From IMG/VR virus record IMGVR_UViG_3300003894_000015, positions 1-35,545 of that record: a stretch of 35,545 bases of DNA; one strand, given 5' to 3'. This document shows positions 5,516 to 15,174 of this stretch, one piece after another (position 1 is the first letter of the stretch; each line of letters opens with the position of its first letter). The notes under the pieces were generated by a model, which was given only the letters and a program-made list of their open reading frames with translations, had not been told where the DNA came from and made no database searches. Position numbers and translations under genes: made by a program. The stretch comes from a virus.

Positions 5516-6436
5516 ATGTTTAACACACCGAGAGAGTTATTAAATGCTTACAAGGAAGGTTTTGTAGGCTCATGGTGCGATCCAGAAGAAACCGATAAAC
5601 TACTAGGAGAATTACCACACCCTTTATTCGGAACCGCTGCTCCAGACTTATATAGCACTGGAGAGGGCAAGGTAGCACTCCTGTATAAATCAGTACAAAA
5701 GTTTGATCCCGGCTTTGGACCTTCAGAACGACAGGTCACAGGAGACTGTGTTTCACACTCTACCCGCAATAGTGTAGATGTAACAAGAGCGCATGAAATT
5801 ATTGGCGGCGATTCAGAAGCTTTTATAGTTAGAAGTGCCACTGAAGCTATTTATGGCTCAAGAGGTCATGGTGGCCAAGGAATGTCGTGCGCTGTTGCTG
5901 CAAGATTTGTTAACCAAAAGGGCGGTATCTTACTTAGAAAAGATTATGGATTTGTTGATCTGTCAACATATAACGGTATGCTTGGTGCAAGGTGGGGTAG
6001 TAGAGGAATACCAAATGAATTAATAGAAGAAGGCAAGAAACATCAGGTTAAAACAATCTCTCTAATCAACACTGTAGATCAAGCTAGAGATGCTATTGCT
6101 AATGGATATGCAATAAGTGTATGTAGTAATTATGGATTTTCATCACGTAGGGACAAGCATGGCATAGCTCGTAAATCTGGATCATGGAATCATGCGATGG
6201 CATGGGTGGCTATGGACGATTCGCGTGAAATTTATAACGAGACATTGTTTTTGATCCAAAATAGTTGGGGTGTTTTTAACGGTGGTCCCAAGCGCTTCGA
6301 CCAACCAGATGGATCATTTTGGATTCGTGAAAGAGATGCAGCTGGGATGCTTAGACAAAACGGAGCTTGGGTTTTTAGCGACGTAGACGGTTTTCCACCA
6401 AGAAAAGTCAACTGGACAATACATGAGGTATTTTGA
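5516..6436 (+). CDS. Papain-like (C1-type) cysteine peptidase
   Basis: A 306-residue protein with all papain catalytic elements in order. Q73 and C78 lie in QVTGDCVSHS (oxyanion Gln and nucleophile). H226 lies in SWNHAMAW, and N249 in LIQNSWG, the classic Asn motif. There is no signal peptide and no obvious propeptide; about 70 residues precede the oxyanion Gln. Papain-fold peptidases cleave peptide bonds. In a phage this could be a lysin, a virion-maturation protease, or an injected host-attacking enzyme. Neighbours are a holin-like gene 10 bases upstream and the first fibre gene, which overlaps by 1 base. The role is uncertain but the fold is well supported. Confidence 0.8.
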   Translation: MFNTPRELLNAYKEGFVGSWCDPEETDKLLGELPHPLFGTAAPDLYSTGEGKVALLYKSVQKFDPGFGPSERQVTGDCVSHSTRNSVDVTRAHEIIGGDSEAFIVRSATEAIYGSRGHGGQGMSCAVAARFVNQKGGILLRKDYGFVDLSTYNGMLGARWGSRGIPNELIEEGKKHQVKTISLINTVDQARDAIANGYAISVCSNYGFSSRRDKHGIARKSGSWNHAMAWVAMDDSREIYNETLFLIQNSWGVFNGGPKRFDQPDGSFWIRERDAAGMLRQNGAWVFSDVDGFPPRKVNWTIHEVF

Positions 6437-9400
6437 TGGCTTCCCACTTCAACTATATCAAAATTCGGCGTGGCTCTAAGAAAGATTTTGACACAAACAA
6501 TTTAACACTAAAGGATGGCGAACCAGCCATAGCTTTAGATAAGCAAGTCTTTAAAATTGGTGACGGCAACAGAAGCTGGAAAGAATTACCATCGTTTCTT
6601 AGCACGCAGCAGTTTAAATCTAAAGTTGCTACAGTCAACGTTCCCTCTTTAACAACTGGCGATACCTACACTGCTACTATTACTATTGACGGCGTTGAAT
6701 CAGACAATCACCACTACGTAGCAGCAGCCCCCGTCGCAGCTTTACCAGACAACATTACAATTTCTTACGCATACGTTAGTAATGACAATCAAGTATCTAT
6801 AAAGTTTGCTAACAGTAATATTGAAAACATTGACGGTGGCGATGTAACACTTGGCACTGGAGAGTCTGCCTTCACAGCTACGATAGCAGTCGTTGTTTAT
6901 CTTATTCAAGACAACAGCGCAACAGAATCTGTTAGTATCACTAGCGATATAGCATTTGCTAACGAGGCATATTCATTTGGTGCCGGTGAATTTGGTCAAT
7001 TGGTATTAAACAGTACTGTAGGTAAAAATATTCCTGTTAAAATTGTTGATACAAAAACTTGGCGCACACTAACTGCGGGAGATTATCATTCGCTTGGAAT
7101 TGACTCGTCAGGAAATCTTTACTCATGTGGATACAATTATTATGGTCAATTAGGACTATTGAATGATGGTCCCGGAACAAATAGAAAACAGTTTGAAAAA
7201 ATTAGCACTAAGTACAATGAATACATAACAAAATCAAATGGAGCTATACAGTCTATTAGTGATAAATACCTCATGAGTCATTTGTTATCAGATCAAAATA
7301 TATGGTCTAAGGTTGATGGTGGATCATCACATACCCTAGCCCTAGACAATGCTGGTTATTTATATAGTTTTGGATCTAATCAACATGGAATTCTTGGTCT
7401 TGGTCATAATCGTCCTAGAAACTATCCGGTTATGGTTTCTTTAGATCCGACGAAAGAAATTATTAATTTGGAGCTTTACACCAATGCCACTATTAAATAT
7501 TCAGATGCTGATTCGCAGTATTCTCTTAACGGATATGAAACAAGCAACTTTAATGGAACAAAAGCACTAGCAATACCATCTGGCAAAATGTTTACAGTTG
7601 AATGTTCACACCCTATAGCTTTTGTTGATGATAATTCAAACAGTAATACTGATATCAGTTCTTATGCAGTAAATAGATCGCTAGGATCTTCTTTAGGTTT
7701 AACTGGAGATGATGCTAATAGAACATTCCATTGTGGTCCTATAAGTATTTCTGGAGCCTATGAAACCGCAACTATTCGCATACTTGCCAGTGGCAATAGA
7801 ATAGATACATACCAACTATACGAAACAGATCCCAACTCACAATGGACAGATATTTCTGCTGGCAGTTTTCACTCTTTAGGAATTAGAGATGGAAAACTAT
7901 ATGCTTGGGGTAATAATACATTTGGTCAAGTGGGTCAGTCTGACTTAGATAAACATTACAACACGCCTACACTGATTTCTACTGGTAATACAACTTGGAG
8001 TAAAGTAGCTGCTGGCAATAGACACTCATTAGCCATTGATTCTAATGGTGATATATGGAGTTGGGGTGAAAATTCTCATGGACAACTTGGCATTGGATCT
8101 ACCGTAGACCAAAACTCCCCAGTGAAAATCTTTTTATCAGCAAACGATGGCAAACAAGTAGTTAACATGTCAGAAGACAGCTTCATGGGCTGGGACGAGG
8201 GAACACAAACAAAACATGTCTTTAATCTTGAAGAAGCTAGTAATCTTGCCGTATATGACGCAAATAAGGTTTACGCATTACAATCTGGCACATACAACAT
8301 ATATGGCGTACCATCTGGATATCCTATAGCCTTTCTGAATAATGGTAAAGACCATTTATTTAGCTATTCTGGAGATATACTACAACACTCTGGAATAGTT
8401 ATATCAAATACCGACAATGACGGAACTTACAATTTCTATTCAGGTAAAATAACCATTACAGTAAGTGGCGATTTTGATCAAGTGAGTCTATATGGCTATG
8501 GTGTTAGTGGATACGGCTCTGGCGACAAGGGGTATATGGGTGGACAAGGAGCGTTTAGATATATTGATACAGCTGAAAAATTTCGTGATATATCTGCTGG
8601 AAGTGATGCCTCGGTAGCATTATCAACCCACAAAAGAATGTATGTATTTGGCAGCAATGAACAAGGAAAGATAGGTCTTAATAACATTCATGAATCACTT
8701 ACTCCATTTAAGCTAGAAGGTAGATGGGATGCTATGTCAATGGGTGCAAATCACCTTCTAGCAGTAAATGAATTCAAAGAATTATGGGCCACTGGCAAGA
8801 ATGATAAAGGCCAATTAGGCTTGGGAGATTCTATTGAACGTAGATCTTTATCGCGTTTAAATTCCAATATTAACTGGTATAAGCCATATGCTGGAGGTTC
8901 TCATTCAATAGTCACTGTGTACTCATTCTACCCTAAAGCTCCAACCAATTTTACAGTTAGAAATGCTTCAAACTCAGTGCTAGCAGGAAATCAACAGATA
9001 TATCTATCTTGGGATTGTGACTCCAGCATCATTGATGGAGTAAAAGCTTATCCGGTGGAAGTATCAGATGATGATGGGATAACTTGGACAGCTTACAACT
9101 ATAAAAAGAGTTTGAACCCAGAAAAGTTCAAGTCTGTAACAATAACTGACGGCTCACCAAGAAAGTTTAGGGTGAAATCCTTAAACGATGTCGGAAGTAG
9201 TGATTGGGTAGAATCGGTAAATATAACAGCAACAGCACATTATGACAATGACTATTGCGATACAGCATTGCTCTTACACCTAGATAATAACACTGCTCTT
9301 AATAGAACGTACACTCTTGACAGTTCTAAGAATGCGTTTAGTACTACTGGTAACGTAGCGTTTACTCCATATCCCGGAAATTTTGGAACCGCAATTAAGC

Positions 9401-9900
9401 CACAAGGCTTAATCACATACAATACATCTAATGGTTACGCTGATCTTGATGGTAACTTTGCGCTAGAATTCTATGTCAAAAATATAGATAGAGGACATGG
9501 TGTTTTTAGATTTATGGAAACATCTGATAATAGTACACAGTCACTAGAGTTAAAATACATGTTTGATTATGCCCCAAATAATACAGACATACAACTAACA
9601 CTAGAATTAGATTTGTATGGACCTAACGGCCTTAGTATTTCTGATACAGTGACACACCTTCAAGATTGGAACTACATTAAAGTTGAGAGAAGTGGATCGG
9701 TTAATACTCTATATCTTAATAGATCTGAAATTGGAAATGTTGTAGAACCTTCAGTTGTCACGCACGATATTAATTACATAGAATTTGGTTCTACCAGTAA
9801 TTCATTACTGCTTGATGAAATAAGATTAAGCAAAATTACAAGAGATTCAGAAATAACCAGAGAATTTGGCGACGGCGATCCAAGTATCACCTGTCCTTAA
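6436..9900 (+). CDS. Large tail fibre/adhesin with RCC1 propeller, FN3-like and LamG-like domains
   Basis: A 1154-residue protein from ATG 6436 (TGATG overlap; GAGG at 6425-6428). The N-terminus carries the fibre module YIKIRRGSKKDF...DGEP...KIGDG (about 8-46), of the kind grouped with the Mtd N-terminal domain. Seven RCC1-type blades follow, with signatures such as LYSCGYNYYGQLGL, LYSFGSNQHGILGLG, LYAWGNNTFGQVGQ, IWSWGENSHGQLGIG and LWATGKNDKGQLGLG, near residues 176-833. Two inserts of about 100-130 residues interrupt blades 3-4 and 5-6. An FN3-like domain (about 835-935) and a LamG-like lectin domain (about 939-1150) end the protein. It probably forms part of the host-recognition apparatus. 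Confidence 0.85.
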   Translation: MASHFNYIKIRRGSKKDFDTNNLTLKDGEPAIALDKQVFKIGDGNRSWKELPSFLSTQQFKSKVATVNVPSLTTGDTYTATITIDGVESDNHHYVAAAPVAALPDNITISYAYVSNDNQVSIKFANSNIENIDGGDVTLGTGESAFTATIAVVVYLIQDNSATESVSITSDIAFANEAYSFGAGEFGQLVLNSTVGKNIPVKIVDTKTWRTLTAGDYHSLGIDSSGNLYSCGYNYYGQLGLLNDGPGTNRKQFEKISTKYNEYITKSNGAIQSISDKYLMSHLLSDQNIWSKVDGGSSHTLALDNAGYLYSFGSNQHGILGLGHNRPRNYPVMVSLDPTKEIINLELYTNATIKYSDADSQYSLNGYETSNFNGTKALAIPSGKMFTVECSHPIAFVDDNSNSNTDISSYAVNRSLGSSLGLTGDDANRTFHCGPISISGAYETATIRILASGNRIDTYQLYETDPNSQWTDISAGSFHSLGIRDGKLYAWGNNTFGQVGQSDLDKHYNTPTLISTGNTTWSKVAAGNRHSLAIDSNGDIWSWGENSHGQLGIGSTVDQNSPVKIFLSANDGKQVVNMSEDSFMGWDEGTQTKHVFNLEEASNLAVYDANKVYALQSGTYNIYGVPSGYPIAFLNNGKDHLFSYSGDILQHSGIVISNTDNDGTYNFYSGKITITVSGDFDQVSLYGYGVSGYGSGDKGYMGGQGAFRYIDTAEKFRDISAGSDASVALSTHKRMYVFGSNEQGKIGLNNIHESLTPFKLEGRWDAMSMGANHLLAVNEFKELWATGKNDKGQLGLGDSIERRSLSRLNSNINWYKPYAGGSHSIVTVYSFYPKAPTNFTVRNASNSVLAGNQQIYLSWDCDSSIIDGVKAYPVEVSDDDGITWTAYNYKKSLNPEKFKSVTITDGSPRKFRVKSLNDVGSSDWVESVNITATAHYDNDYCDTALLLHLDNNTALNRTYTLDSSKNAFSTTGNVAFTPYPGNFGTAIKPQGLITYNTSNGYADLDGNFALEFYVKNIDRGHGVFRFMETSDNSTQSLELKYMFDYAPNNTDIQLTLELDLYGPNGLSISDTVTHLQDWNYIKVERSGSVNTLYLNRSEIGNVVEPSVVTHDINYIEFGSTSNSLLLDEIRLSKITRDSEITREFGDGDPSITCP

Positions 9901-9910
9901 GGAGTGAAAT

Positions 9911-10552
9911 ATGGCTACTATACAAGTAAAAAGAGGCGCAGAAAACGATCTTAATACCATAACGCCAGCGTCTGGTGAGCCAGTATTTTCAACAGATACA
10001 AAAGTGTTAAAAATTGGTGACGGCGTAAACACATGGGCTTCTTTAGGTTCTTTCTCAACCAGTAATTATCCAGAACTCACGGAAGAGAGTTTAACTTCCT
10101 CTCCTATTTCTAACTGGTCTCCAAGTAATGATGCGAAAAACATAGACATTACAAGCCAATCCCAAACTGATACAGTTATTAGGGGAATAGATTCTAGTTA
10201 CAATATCAAAGCTTTTAATGTGTACAATAGGTCTGGAGGATCTAATACAATTACATTTGCTCATGATAATGGCACAGCAAGTGCTGGTAACAGAATACTT
10301 ACCCGTCAATCTGAAAACATTAAAATTTTTGGAAGCGAAGGAGTAGAATTTATTTACGATACTAGTGCCAAAAGTGGTGCTGGAGCATGGAGATGCAGAA
10401 AACTAGGTGTTCAATCTAATGTGGCTAAGATAGAAAATGATTATCCATCTGCGGTTGTTAGCGGCGTGTATAACATAGTAATAGTAAGCTCAGGTACATA
10501 TGCATCAATCACAAATAAAGATCCCAATACACTTTACATAGTTCCAGACTGA
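9911..10552 (+). CDS. Small fibre/adhesin protein with shared N-terminal module
   Basis: A 213-residue protein. The first about 40 residues (IQVKRGAENDL, then SGEPVFSTDTKVLKIGDG) are the same module as at the start of the neighbouring large fibres, probably for docking to a common tail component. The middle is beta-rich. Residues 118-160 (ITFAHDNGTASAGNRIL, then GSEGVEFIYDTSAKSGAGAWR) look like a small fibre head or plug domain shared with the protein at 14470. The end, TYASITNKDPNTLYIVPD, is a tail motif common in phage fibre proteins. It overlaps nothing and has a good AAGGAG site (about 9898-9903). Confidence 0.75.
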   Translation: MATIQVKRGAENDLNTITPASGEPVFSTDTKVLKIGDGVNTWASLGSFSTSNYPELTEESLTSSPISNWSPSNDAKNIDITSQSQTDTVIRGIDSSYNIKAFNVYNRSGGSNTITFAHDNGTASAGNRILTRQSENIKIFGSEGVEFIYDTSAKSGAGAWRCRKLGVQSNVAKIENDYPSAVVSGVYNIVIVSSGTYASITNKDPNTLYIVPD

Positions 10553-10566
10553 TTTGGAGAAATAAG

Positions 10567-13500
10567 ATGCCAGACTATTCAGATACAAGAATACAATTTC
10601 GCAGAGGCTCATACACACAGTGGGCTAATAGCAATCCTGTTCTCGCAAGTGGAGAACCCGGATTTGACACAACAAACAACATACTTAAAGTTGGAGATGG
10701 CTCAACTCAATGGGCCAGCCTTTCTGGGGTTGGTGGCAATGGTGGAGGCGGTGGTGGATCAACCACATTTGTTGGCCTTTTAGATACTCCTGCTAATTTC
10801 ACTGGCGCTGGAGGTAAAATAGTAGCAGTAAACTCTGCCGCAAGCGCACTTGAATACATTGCAGCTTCTAGTTTAAGTATCACAGAGTCTCAGATTTCTG
10901 ATCTTGGATCATATCTTACCTCTGTTGGAATATCAGATATTGATTCAAATGTCATTATTACAGAAACAGAAGGCATTGCATCTAATGATAATGACACAAC
11001 TATACCAACTTCTGCTGCTGTAAAAGCTTATGTTGATGCCAACGCTGGAGGCTCTGAAGTTAATGATCTAACAAGTTCAGTGACTTGGGCGAATGTTCCA
11101 GATGCTAATATTACTGAAAGTTCAGTCGTGCAGCACAGCGGAGCCATAAGAATTACGGAATCTCAGATTGTAGACTTGGGACACACAAGTGAGCTTAACG
11201 ATTTAACGGCCAATGTAACGTGGGCAAATGTCCCAGATACTAACATCACTGAAAGCTCTGTGGTTCAGCATAGCGGGGCATTACGCTTGACTGAATCGCA
11301 GATTGTGGATTTGGGCGATTATGTAGCTAGTGGTGACAATGTTAGCTTGCTTACTAATGATGCTAACTATTTAACGTCAGAAACTTTAACGTCTCTCGGA
11401 ATTAATGCAAACATTCTTAAGTATACTGACGAAAACGGAGCAGAAACAGACATAGATCTAAGTCTATATCTTGATGATACTAATTTAGCCAGATTAGTAA
11501 GCGGAACGCTAGATTCACAAACAGCTATAGCCACATTTACAAGAGATGATAGTAGTACATTTACTGTTGATTTTAGTAGTTTGCTTTCACAAGCTGAAAT
11601 TAACGACCTAACCGCCAGCGTTACATGGGCCAACGTGCCAGATACAAATATCACCGAAAGTTCGGTTGTTCAGCACAGCGGAGCGTTGCGATTAACCGAG
11701 TCGCAGATTGTGGATTTGCAGTCCTACCTGACCTCAGAGAGCAACGACCTAACCACCAGCGTTACGTGGGCAAACGTGCCTGATGTTAATATTACTGAAT
11801 CCTCTGTAGTACAGCACAGCGGAGCATTAAGGTTAACTGAATCACAGATTAGTGATTTAACACACTACACAGACGGTGATGTAGATATACACTTGAACAC
11901 AAGCACAGCTACTAACAATCAAATATTAAGTTGGACTGGTACAGATTATGACTGGGTAGATCAAACACTTGTAGGCACAAGTACAGTAGTTGCTCCATTC
12001 GCTTTTGTAAGACTTGCAACAACTTCAAATGGTTCTGGCACAGGTATGAGTTGGAGTAACTGGGATGCAGTTAATGGTACAATGGATTTTACCTTTGATA
12101 ATGCCCAACCTGATACTAATTATATTGTTGTTACTGATGGTGAGGCTAATGATGATGGTCGTTTAGTTTCAATTCAAAACAAAACAGTTAATGGGTTCGA
12201 GGCTTCGTTTTATGATACTAATGGTATAAGAACTCCATCCGCAGCAGATGCATATGCACTTATTGTTTATGGTTCAACACCAACTACAACAGTAGTAGGC
12301 AGTGGAAGTTTAACAGACTTGAGTGTTACAACAACCGCAGCAGGAAGTGCAGCTCTATCATACGACAATGCAAATGGTACGTTTACATATACACCGCCAG
12401 ATCTAAGCGGTTACTTAACATCATTCACAGAAACAAACGATCTTACAAGTGCAGTTACTTGGGCAAATGTTCCAGATGCTAATATTACTGAATCTTCTGT
12501 GGTACAGCATAGTGGTGCTTTACGCATCACAGAGTCTCAGATCACAGATTTGCAATCATATTTAACTTCAGTTTCTGGCGATACAGCACCAAGTCTGGGT
12601 GGTGAACTAAATCTTAATAACAATGATATCGTTATTGATTGTAAAAATTCAACTGGCTCTCAAATTCTTGCTGGAACTCCAGTATATGTAAGTGGATATT
12701 ATAGCGCTAATGGTAAAGCTCTAATTGCTCCAGCCAGATCTGATGACTCAACAAAAATGCCAGCAATAGGTGTACTAAATTCTACCATTGACGATGGAAA
12801 CGAAGGTACTGTTGGTGTAATGGGCGTTGTCTCCCAAATTAACACAAATTCTTTTGAGGTTGGTGAAACTTTATACGTAGGACCAACTGGAGGTTTAACA
12901 AACGTAAAACCATCTGGAGATTCAGAACTAATTCAAAACCTAGGAAGAGTATTAAGAAAAGATGCTTCTCAAGGCAAAATAATATTGCTTGGTGCTGGGA
13001 GATCTAACGATGTTCCTAACTCTGCAACGTTTACTGGTGATGTAGAAGCTAATAGCTTTGTTAAAACTGGCGGAACTTCTTCACAGTTTCTTAAAGCTGA
13101 TGGAAGTGTTGATAGCAATACTTACCTCACATCAGAGAGCAACGATCTCACTACTAGCGTTACATGGGCCAACGTACCAGACGCTAACATTACCGAAAGT
13201 TCGGTTGTTCAGCACAGCGGAGCATTGCGATTAACCGAGTCGCAGATTACAGATCTTGGATCATATATCACAGGTGGTGGTACAACTAATTATTTAGCCA
13301 AATGGAGTAATAGCAATAATTTAACAGATAGCGTTATATGGGCCGATGACTATCATGTTGGTCTTGGTCTATCAAACCCTTCTGAGAGATTACATCTTGA
13401 GGAGGGAAACCTGCTGATTAATACGGGGGCTGGTCAGTGGACTCCCCAGTACGGCATAGTTTTTGATACTTGTGGTCTTATAATTACAGATGATACGATA

Positions 13501-14124
13501 GGTGCTTCTCTTAATCCAAGTTTATACGACAGTCTTGTGATTGGAGAAGGCGTTACAAGCTACTCTCATAAAGCTATTAATTTTGCAAATGGTAGATTTT
13601 CTAGCAATGGTGATTCACAGAAAATATTACAAGTTTTAAGAGGTACTACTACAAATGCAAGTAACTACTTCCTATCTAATAATGGATCATCCGCAAGTCT
13701 ATTGATGAATAGCACGCATCTGATTATCTCGCCTAGTTTTTCAGGTACTGGCGTAAATTTGCCTAGTAGCGCAGTATTTACTTTTACAATACACATATCT
13801 TGTAGAAAACAAAATAGTACTGATTCTGCGGCTTGGATTATTAGAGGGGCTGTTAAAAACAATACAGGGCATACTGGCAGTGGGTTTATTGCGGAGTCTG
13901 ATGTTAGTTCTACCATGAACTATAATTTAATAGGATCTCCCATAGTTGAGAGCCATATTGATTCTGGCCTTTCTGGAGTTAATGCCCAAGTTGTCACATC
14001 TTACTATAATGGCTCTTCTGGTAACACAATTAATAATGCGTGGTTTGCTATTCAGGTAAATGGTTTAGCTGAAACTAATTTAAGATGGTCTGCTACAGTA
14101 GAAGGCGTAGTTACTACATACTAA
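10567..14124 (+). CDS. Repeat-containing tail fibre protein
   Basis: A 1185-residue protein. The N-terminal docking module (IQFRRGSYTQWANSNPVLAS, then GEPGF...LKVGDG) leads into a Gly-rich hinge (about 57-66). Six 39-residue repeats with the core TWANVPDANITESSVVQHSG and ending ITESQIVDL lie between residues 166 and 897, split by beta-rich inserts. A typical fibre segment follows: TNYLAKWSNSNNLTDS then VGLGLSNPSERLHL. The C-terminus, from about 1060 and ending NLRWSATVEGVVTTY, resembles receptor-binding tips with a terminal '.IRW.A.V' strand. No chaperone/autocleavage domain is seen. It probably forms a trimeric fibre. Confidence 0.85.
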   Translation: MPDYSDTRIQFRRGSYTQWANSNPVLASGEPGFDTTNNILKVGDGSTQWASLSGVGGNGGGGGGSTTFVGLLDTPANFTGAGGKIVAVNSAASALEYIAASSLSITESQISDLGSYLTSVGISDIDSNVIITETEGIASNDNDTTIPTSAAVKAYVDANAGGSEVNDLTSSVTWANVPDANITESSVVQHSGAIRITESQIVDLGHTSELNDLTANVTWANVPDTNITESSVVQHSGALRLTESQIVDLGDYVASGDNVSLLTNDANYLTSETLTSLGINANILKYTDENGAETDIDLSLYLDDTNLARLVSGTLDSQTAIATFTRDDSSTFTVDFSSLLSQAEINDLTASVTWANVPDTNITESSVVQHSGALRLTESQIVDLQSYLTSESNDLTTSVTWANVPDVNITESSVVQHSGALRLTESQISDLTHYTDGDVDIHLNTSTATNNQILSWTGTDYDWVDQTLVGTSTVVAPFAFVRLATTSNGSGTGMSWSNWDAVNGTMDFTFDNAQPDTNYIVVTDGEANDDGRLVSIQNKTVNGFEASFYDTNGIRTPSAADAYALIVYGSTPTTTVVGSGSLTDLSVTTTAAGSAALSYDNANGTFTYTPPDLSGYLTSFTETNDLTSAVTWANVPDANITESSVVQHSGALRITESQITDLQSYLTSVSGDTAPSLGGELNLNNNDIVIDCKNSTGSQILAGTPVYVSGYYSANGKALIAPARSDDSTKMPAIGVLNSTIDDGNEGTVGVMGVVSQINTNSFEVGETLYVGPTGGLTNVKPSGDSELIQNLGRVLRKDASQGKIILLGAGRSNDVPNSATFTGDVEANSFVKTGGTSSQFLKADGSVDSNTYLTSESNDLTTSVTWANVPDANITESSVVQHSGALRLTESQITDLGSYITGGGTTNYLAKWSNSNNLTDSVIWADDYHVGLGLSNPSERLHLEEGNLLINTGAGQWTPQYGIVFDTCGLIITDDTIGASLNPSLYDSLVIGEGVTSYSHKAINFANGRFSSNGDSQKILQVLRGTTTNASNYFLSNNGSSASLLMNSTHLIISPSFSGTGVNLPSSAVFTFTIHISCRKQNSTDSAAWIIRGAVKNNTGHTGSGFIAESDVSSTMNYNLIGSPIVESHIDSGLSGVNAQVVTSYYNGSSGNTINNAWFAIQVNGLAETNLRWSATVEGVVTTY
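11062..13257 (+). repeat. Six in-gene 117-bp repeats in the fibre
   Basis: Six in-frame copies of a 39-codon unit lie at 11062-11178, 11197-11313, 11602-11718, 11743-11859, 12436-12552 and 13141-13257. A partial unit (ITESQISDL) lies just before, near 10880-10905. Protein identity is very high. At DNA level most copies differ at many synonymous sites. The copies at 11602 and 13141 are an exception and share a nearly identical block of about 55 bases (starting ACCGAAAGTTCGGTTGTTCA). This suggests old duplication plus one recent conversion. Confidence 0.9.
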
Positions 14125-14469: not shown

Positions 14470-15174
14470 ATGAGCGTTAATTTTGGGTCTAATCCTGTAA
14501 CTATCAACAACTACACTATTCCTTCTGGAAATATTATTGTTAGCAACAGTGGCGTTGCTGCTGGATCTGATTCAGTAGATAACGTCATTGTTCTATCTGC
14601 CGCAGAATACGCAGCAGCAACCCCGCAAAGCGGTGTGCTTTATATCATTGAAGATGAGAACACTGCTTCATTTAATACAATAACTGCAACAAGTGGAAAT
14701 TTTGACTTTATAATAGCAGACAGTGGCATTACTGTTAGCGGAGTTGACGTATTAATCTCTGGAGATAATATCACCAGAGGTAATCACGCAAGTCTTGGTA
14801 GTGGAACATACAACAATTGGAATCCAACAGTGACCGCCGAGGTTGTTAGAGTTACTACAACTGGAAGCCTAGATATCACCGGCTTAATTTCTACATACGC
14901 CAGAGGCCAACTAACAATGACAAACTTTGGCTCACACCAAATTACACTGAAGCAAGATAGTGCTTCTTCTGATGCTGCTAATAGATTCTATAACATGCCT
15001 CATGGAGACTTGATATTACAGTCTGGAGACACAGCAACTTTTACGTATGACGAATCTTATAGTAGGTGGTTGGTTTATGGCGCTGGTCAAGCAACCAAAA
15101 TTGTAACATTAACACAATCAGAGTACAATGCTTTGAGTTCATATGATCCTAACACGCTTTATTTTGTAACATAG
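14470..15174 (+). CDS. Fibre/adhesin-like structural protein
   Basis: A 234-residue, Ser/Thr/Ala-rich beta protein. Two copies of the motif 'LS..EY.A..P....LY' appear: VLSAAEYAAATPQSGVLYII (45-64) and, at the C-terminus, LTQSEYNALSSYDPNTLYFV. The latter is a recurrent ending of phage structural proteins. The middle (about 130-207) contains LTMTNFGSHQITLKQD and then FTYDESYSRWLVYG, which parallels the head-like part of the 9911 protein. It lacks the N-terminal docking module of the large fibres. Probably a minor fibre or adhesin tip. Confidence 0.7.
   Translation: MSVNFGSNPVTINNYTIPSGNIIVSNSGVAAGSDSVDNVIVLSAAEYAAATPQSGVLYIIEDENTASFNTITATSGNFDFIIADSGITVSGVDVLISGDNITRGNHASLGSGTYNNWNPTVTAEVVRVTTTGSLDITGLISTYARGQLTMTNFGSHQITLKQDSASSDAANRFYNMPHGDLILQSGDTATFTYDESYSRWLVYGAGQATKIVTLTQSEYNALSSYDPNTLYFVT

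Follow-up and report, generated by a model that had tools for sequence, protein, structure and literature searches.

Propeller domains occur in receptor-binding proteins of phages: according to an excerpt of the published account (PMC4901313), Gp45 of phi11 has a five-bladed propeller and a seven-bladed one has been suggested for gp131C of PhiKZ. In amicyanin, a loop presents Cys92, His95 and Met98 in the spacing C-x2-H-x2-M (PMC12723479). Here, we describe a predicted viral fibre protein that appears to combine a propeller with modules related to such copper proteins. It is encoded on the plus strand by the open frame 6436-9900 (1154 amino acids, 6436-9897) of the metagenomic virus contig IMGVR_UViG_3300003894_000015, which is 35,545 bases long and is called the window below. 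According to its structural model, the protein forms a closed seven-bladed RCC1 propeller, and two mutually similar modules, apparently derived from cupredoxins, are inserted between the blades. Neither module has the complete His, Cys, His, Met set of a type 1 copper site.

Seven stretches of the protein match RCC1 in Pfam (PF00415, E 1e-57) and Mtd_N (PF18454) is found above the cut-off at residues 8-44 (E 6e-7); in the PDB, its sequence is closest to UVR8 and further RCC1-like proteins. A full-length AlphaFold2 model was built on a seven-sequence alignment of orthologues. DSSP assigned four-stranded blades at residues 209-255, 290-333, 470-513, 521-564, 716-760 and 764-807 and a seventh blade that is split into residues 178-202 and 814-828 and closed by both chain ends. 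Foldseek aligned this model to the RLD2 domain of HERC2 (7q40_C) with a TMt of 0.87 and a root-mean-square deviation of 4.0 over 668 alignment columns, spanning the inserts. As modelled, the fold is a closed RCC1 propeller of six whole blades and one velcro-closed blade. A first-pass annotation, made from the sequence, had proposed seven RCC1 blades plus a closing segment, with an FN3-like and a LamG-like end; the seven blades are borne out by the model, but the separate closing segment is not. The FN3-like end holds as well, since fn3 was detected by Pfam in five of seven orthologues (best E 1.5e-7). For the other end the AlphaFold2 strands speak for a LamG-like domain, but no Pfam LamG match was found in any of the seven orthologues; we regard this end as probably LamG-like. 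The parts of the gene are as follows, with the evidence in brackets.

6436-6606, plus strand: Mtd_N-type docking domain, residues 1-57 (Pfam; seven of seven orthologues; also in genes 9911 and 10567)
6607-6963, plus strand: second N-terminal beta-rich domain, residues 58-176, without family match (AlphaFold2/DSSP strands, orthologue alignment)
6964-7044, plus strand: N-terminal half of RCC1 blade 7, residues 177-203, propeller closure (conserved FGQL motif; AlphaFold2/DSSP)
7060-7203, plus strand: RCC1 blade 1, residues 209-256 (Pfam RCC1; DSSP)
7204-7302, plus strand: variable insertion in inter-blade loop 1/2, residues 257-289, 16-33 amino acids long with a mean identity of 23% among orthologues (orthologue comparison)
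7303-7437, plus strand: RCC1 blade 2, residues 290-334 (Pfam RCC1; DSSP)
7438-7842, plus strand: insert 1, cupredoxin-like module with an incomplete ligand set, residues 335-469 (hhalign; profile against shuffled sequences)
7843-8133, plus strand: RCC1 blades 3 and 4, residues 470-566 (Pfam RCC1; AlphaFold2 confidence about 80-93)
8134-8580, plus strand: insert 2, cupredoxin-like module, residues 567-715 (family profile, hhalign, AlphaFold2)
8320-8322, plus strand: Tyr629 at the family's first His ligand position, HPIA (three alignments)
8494-8529, plus strand: Gly687 to Lys698, with the Cys and second His positions replaced (three alignments)
8581-8931, plus strand: RCC1 blades 5 and 6 and C-terminal half of blade 7, residues 716-832 (Pfam RCC1; DSSP)
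8932-9240, plus strand: fn3-type domain, residues 833-935 (Pfam fn3 in orthologues; weak titin match)
9241-9846, plus strand: C-terminal beta-rich domain, LamG-like, residues 936-1137 (AlphaFold2 strand pattern)

The inserts comprise 135-149 amino acids and occupy the D-to-A inter-blade loops 2/3 and 4/5. Judged by profile comparison (hhalign E 4e-16) they are homologous to each other, as the first-pass annotation had proposed, and the motif positions it gave are exact: HPIAF at 392-396 in insert 1, YPIAF at 629-633 and GYMGG at 699-703 in insert 2, and 'F..G.I.I' in both (FHCGPISI 427-434, FYSGKITI 667-674). Both inserts match significantly the profile of a mainly marine viral family, defined here as the GYMGG module family, whose 146 copies end in C-x2-H-G-Y-M-G-G (hhalign E 4e-13 for insert 1 and 3e-36 for insert 2). 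With a family hidden Markov model of 33 modules ending in C.YHGYMGG, the full protein gave 61.5 bits for insert 2 and 13.8 bits for insert 1. When excised, insert 1 of the window reached 19.4 bits and its counterparts in the orthologues 16.7-49.9 bits (best single domain), the lowest of these values coming from a match that was split into two pieces. Among 3500 shuffled sequences the highest score was 14.6 bits, below every excised insert 1, and by this sequence measure the similarity exceeds chance. The module is not covered significantly by any Pfam, NCBIfam or PHROG family, and its canonical form had no match in isolate phages (tblastn, E 1e-3).

The relation to cupredoxins is supported by a chain of profiles. 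The module family matches a wide phage-fibre family (E 4e-8) whose invariant columns include H39, C85, H88 and M91 (H...C-x2-H-x2-M), and the wide family in turn matches canonical Copper-bind with E 1.7e-7 and the C..H..M region aligned, whereas control profiles (fn3, LamG, RCC1, N-terminal) gave E >0.3. The C-x2-H-x2-M spacing of the insert relatives is that of amicyanin. On the basis of this chain and spacing, the inserts would be cupredoxin-derived. One His together with C-x2-H-x2-M in the module family is probably a type-1-like copper site, and intact relatives may bind copper. Moreover, a protein from an archaeal metagenome-assembled genome has the module together with a Copper-bind domain (E 6e-13), and in another such protein the wide domain is nested within the module. 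GYMGG-module proteins, some with other cupredoxin-type domains, are encoded on metagenome-assembled contigs labelled Euryarchaeota (two), Opitutia and Verrucomicrobia (L327-L330).

Insert 2 alone (residues 581-718) was modelled by AlphaFold2 as a beta-rich domain with a predicted local distance difference test (pLDDT) score of 81, and this model had six matches at E <0.001 in a viral structure library. Predicted structures that resemble it are R4TIA3, A0A5B8IDC5 and A0A076FH44 in BFVD, and the viruses with such models include Mimiviridae sp. ChoanoV1 (YHYH domain protein) and Aureococcus anophagefferens virus. The wide H...C-x2-H-x2-M domain has matches in 306 of 50,697 isolate phage records, mostly of cyanophages. 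All five isolates fetched, P-SSM2, P-TIM68, Bellamy, HTVC028P and ACG-2014d (L364-L368), have the full ligand set; the annotations there read tail fiber-like protein, putative tail fiber, and gp9 baseplate connector or wedge initiator.

Of its four ligands, insert 2 of the window keeps Met701 and has the other three replaced (His by Tyr629, Cys by Gly687, His by Lys698); eight extra residues lie between Gly687 and Lys698, and GYMGG is retained. This agrees with the first-pass annotation, in which insert 2 was likened to a module ending in CYYHGYMGG with Cys changed to Gly and His to Lys, and the family model and orthologue alignments lead to the same assignment. The ligand set of insert 1 is also incomplete. 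H/C/H/M is found in 119 of the 146 counted module copies, a biased figure that includes near-identical duplicates and in which only the first His and the Cys are independent, because the search pattern required the second His and the Met.

Scans of the viral contig collection with a single protein as query, either the complete fibre or insert 2, gave no relatives; these were recovered by motif pattern and by alignment scan. Six orthologous loci were found, L046 and L092 by motif search and L252-L255 by alignment search, with L252 cut so that the 3' end of the locus is missing. The orthologous fibres are 29-37% identical to that of the window and have a common layout: Mtd_N and RCC1 are present in seven of seven (Pfam), the upstream genes correspond, and some have a further insertion between blades 3 and 4. 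The ligands of insert 2 are intact in three of the six orthologues (G001, G002, L253) and partially kept in L255 (Asp, Ser, His, Met); L254 (Asn, Thr, Asn, Leu) and L252 have lost them. In the orthologue tree the window pairs with L252 and the intact L253 with the lost L254, the latter pair with a support of 99/99; a tree of insert 2 only was discarded because of long branches. Given an intact ancestor, which is itself presumed, we infer at least three losses of the ligand site. Core conservation is 50% in insert 2, 32% in insert 1 and 43-55% in the blades; since the ligands were lost from an insert whose core equals the blades in conservation, the fold and not the metal appears to be kept. 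Ligand-less modules (e.g. YPIAV...YYYKK) occur in the tandem-module fibres L018, L029, L103, L005 and L108 beside some intact C-terminal ones; L018 and L103, for instance, have degenerate copies next to intact modules.

Among the RCC1 frames examined, the module is an inter-blade insert only in the family of the window fibre; the RCC1 frame of L171 has a wide-family domain at its N-terminus and not between blades. Isolate phages gave only partial matches to the window fibre, in the RCC1 region. A phage contig of 25 kb (L121 / G004) has 39 RCC1-region match places over many open frames.

The genes around the fibre gene include the following.

5516-6436, plus strand: conserved upstream neighbour of 306 amino acids, papain-like fold suspected (weak Peptidase_C1)
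9911-14124, plus strand: two more fibre genes with Mtd_N docking domains, 9911-10552 and 10567-14124 (Pfam)

The Peptidase_C1 match of the upstream gene is below threshold (Pfam, E 0.006). In the orthologous loci, the fibre gene is directly preceded by a 306-amino-acid homologue, the frame in L254 having 325 amino acids, and isolate phages gave no match to the gene at E 1e-3. Mtd_N was detected with E 8.5e-12 in gene 9911-10552, which also has a weak Phage_tail_C below the cut-off, and with E 3.5e-16 in gene 10567-14124. As Mtd_N recurs in the next two genes and Phage_tail_C is present in gene 14470-15174, the region looks like a fibre gene cluster. Mtd_N, the complete seven-bladed model and the adjacent tail-type genes thus agree with the earlier proposal of a fibre with a docking module and an RCC1 propeller, and we infer that the protein is located in the virion and binds a receptor.

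Altogether, we consider it fairly likely that the protein is a receptor-binding fibre whose cupredoxin-derived modules act as metal-free adhesin or spacer. The Mtd_N-type domain would dock the fibre on the tail, the seven-bladed propeller would be its body, and the fn3-type and C-terminal beta-rich domains its end. Two cupredoxin-derived beta-sandwich modules would decorate the inter-blade loops 2/3 and 4/5 and may serve host recognition. Domain order, blade count, insert homology and ligand states come from the computations; that the modules are most likely metal-free here is suggested by the three missing ligands of insert 2 and the incomplete set of insert 1. Several points weigh against this reading. 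The mean pLDDT of the full-length model is 63 (blades mostly about 70-93) and insert 1 is mostly below 56, and neither capsid nor baseplate genes were identified. Both inserts sit after the last strand of one blade and before the first of the next and should therefore leave the same propeller face, beside the variable loop 1/2, a placement taken from strand order. The motif 'PSG..(H/Y)PIAF', said by the first-pass annotation to be shared, is not, since in insert 1 HPIAF follows PSG after a gap of eight residues, and in insert 2 there is no gap. Direct profile comparison of the inserts with Copper-bind is weak (E 0.012 for insert 2, 0.37 for insert 1), and Foldseek found no significant fold match of the insert 2 model in the PDB; the top weak hits are mostly multicopper oxidases, with CueO and bilirubin oxidase at E 0.04-0.1 and TM about 0.26-0.33. 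The cupredoxin fold, suspected in diverged form by the first-pass annotation, is therefore indirectly supported, by the profile chain and the amicyanin-like spacing but not by the direct fold search.

The missing fold match also speaks for another reading, in which the inserts are beta-sandwiches of a generic Ig-like or lectin-like kind and the H...C..H..M of their relatives is a structural or zinc site, and many PDB sequence matches of the wide profile are indeed immunoglobulin light chains, found via a YYC motif. We regard this as unlikely, however, in view of the match of the wide family to Copper-bind, far from the control values, the amicyanin-like order and spacing of the ligands and the predominance of multicopper oxidases among the top, though weak, structural matches. 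It is quite improbable that the window inserts still bind metal through other residues, the site being changed and not lost. Met701 and the GYMGG loop are kept in insert 2 and insert 1 has its own HPIAF with His428-Cys429 nearby, but these two residues lie outside the ligand columns, Tyr629, Gly687 and Lys698 would be an unusual set for a soft metal, and L254 and L252 lost the site by different routes. A role of the RCC1 protein in organizing DNA, or elsewhere inside the host cell, was proposed in part by the authors of the phAPEC6 paper, who suggest DNA ordering for RCC1-like phage proteins (PMC7247149), and the PHROG RCC1 families phrog_7220, phrog_16766 and phrog_4219 carry the label 'DNA, RNA and nucleotide metabolism'. 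For the window protein this seems very improbable, since its N-terminal Mtd_N is common to the next fibre genes, a Phage_tail_C protein is encoded nearby and its C-terminal end carries the fn3-type and a further beta-rich domain. The nucleotide-metabolism label is poorly suited to an Mtd_N fibre.

With the receptor-binding fibre as the favoured reading, we argue from the window that a fibre is one possible place for RCC1 proteins of phages. It is tempting to speculate, and possible though doubtful, that a large, uncatalogued family of cupredoxin-derived modules is used in the fibres of marine phages and giant algal viruses, that those members with an intact site hold copper in the virion and affect adsorption or stability, and that the sites in RCC1 fibres were repeatedly lost while the module was kept for host recognition. 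If intact modules hold copper, adsorption of oceanic phages could depend on a trace metal, and the orthologues with intact, partial and lost sites are a natural test set for copper dependence. The literature searched on cupredoxins together with phage fibres, cyanophages and virions contained no paper on a phage-fibre cupredoxin by title or abstract opening, and no propeller receptor-binding protein with the layout of the window fibre was found in it.

Like UVR8, HERC2 RLD2, RPGR and RCC1, to which its propeller is significantly matched in sequence and fold, the window protein is predicted to have seven four-stranded blades, with both ends of the chain closing the last one; unlike them, it would be part of a phage fibre with Mtd_N and has two whole domains nested between blades. 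Relatives of its inserts keep a His followed by C-x2-H-x2-M, as do type 1 cupredoxins (plastocyanin/azurin, amicyanin; Copper-bind), whereas the window inserts lack the ligand set and their likeness is seen in profiles. Tail-fibre or baseplate-connector proteins of marine cyanophages and pelagiphages (phrog_677 and others) have the wide domain, by profile a distant relative of the module but another subfamily. In phi11 Gp45 and PhiKZ gp131C, a propeller belongs to a proven or suspected host-recognition protein, as proposed here for the window fibre; in the excerpted descriptions these two are presented neither as RCC1-type nor with nested cupredoxin-like modules, which sets the window fibre apart.

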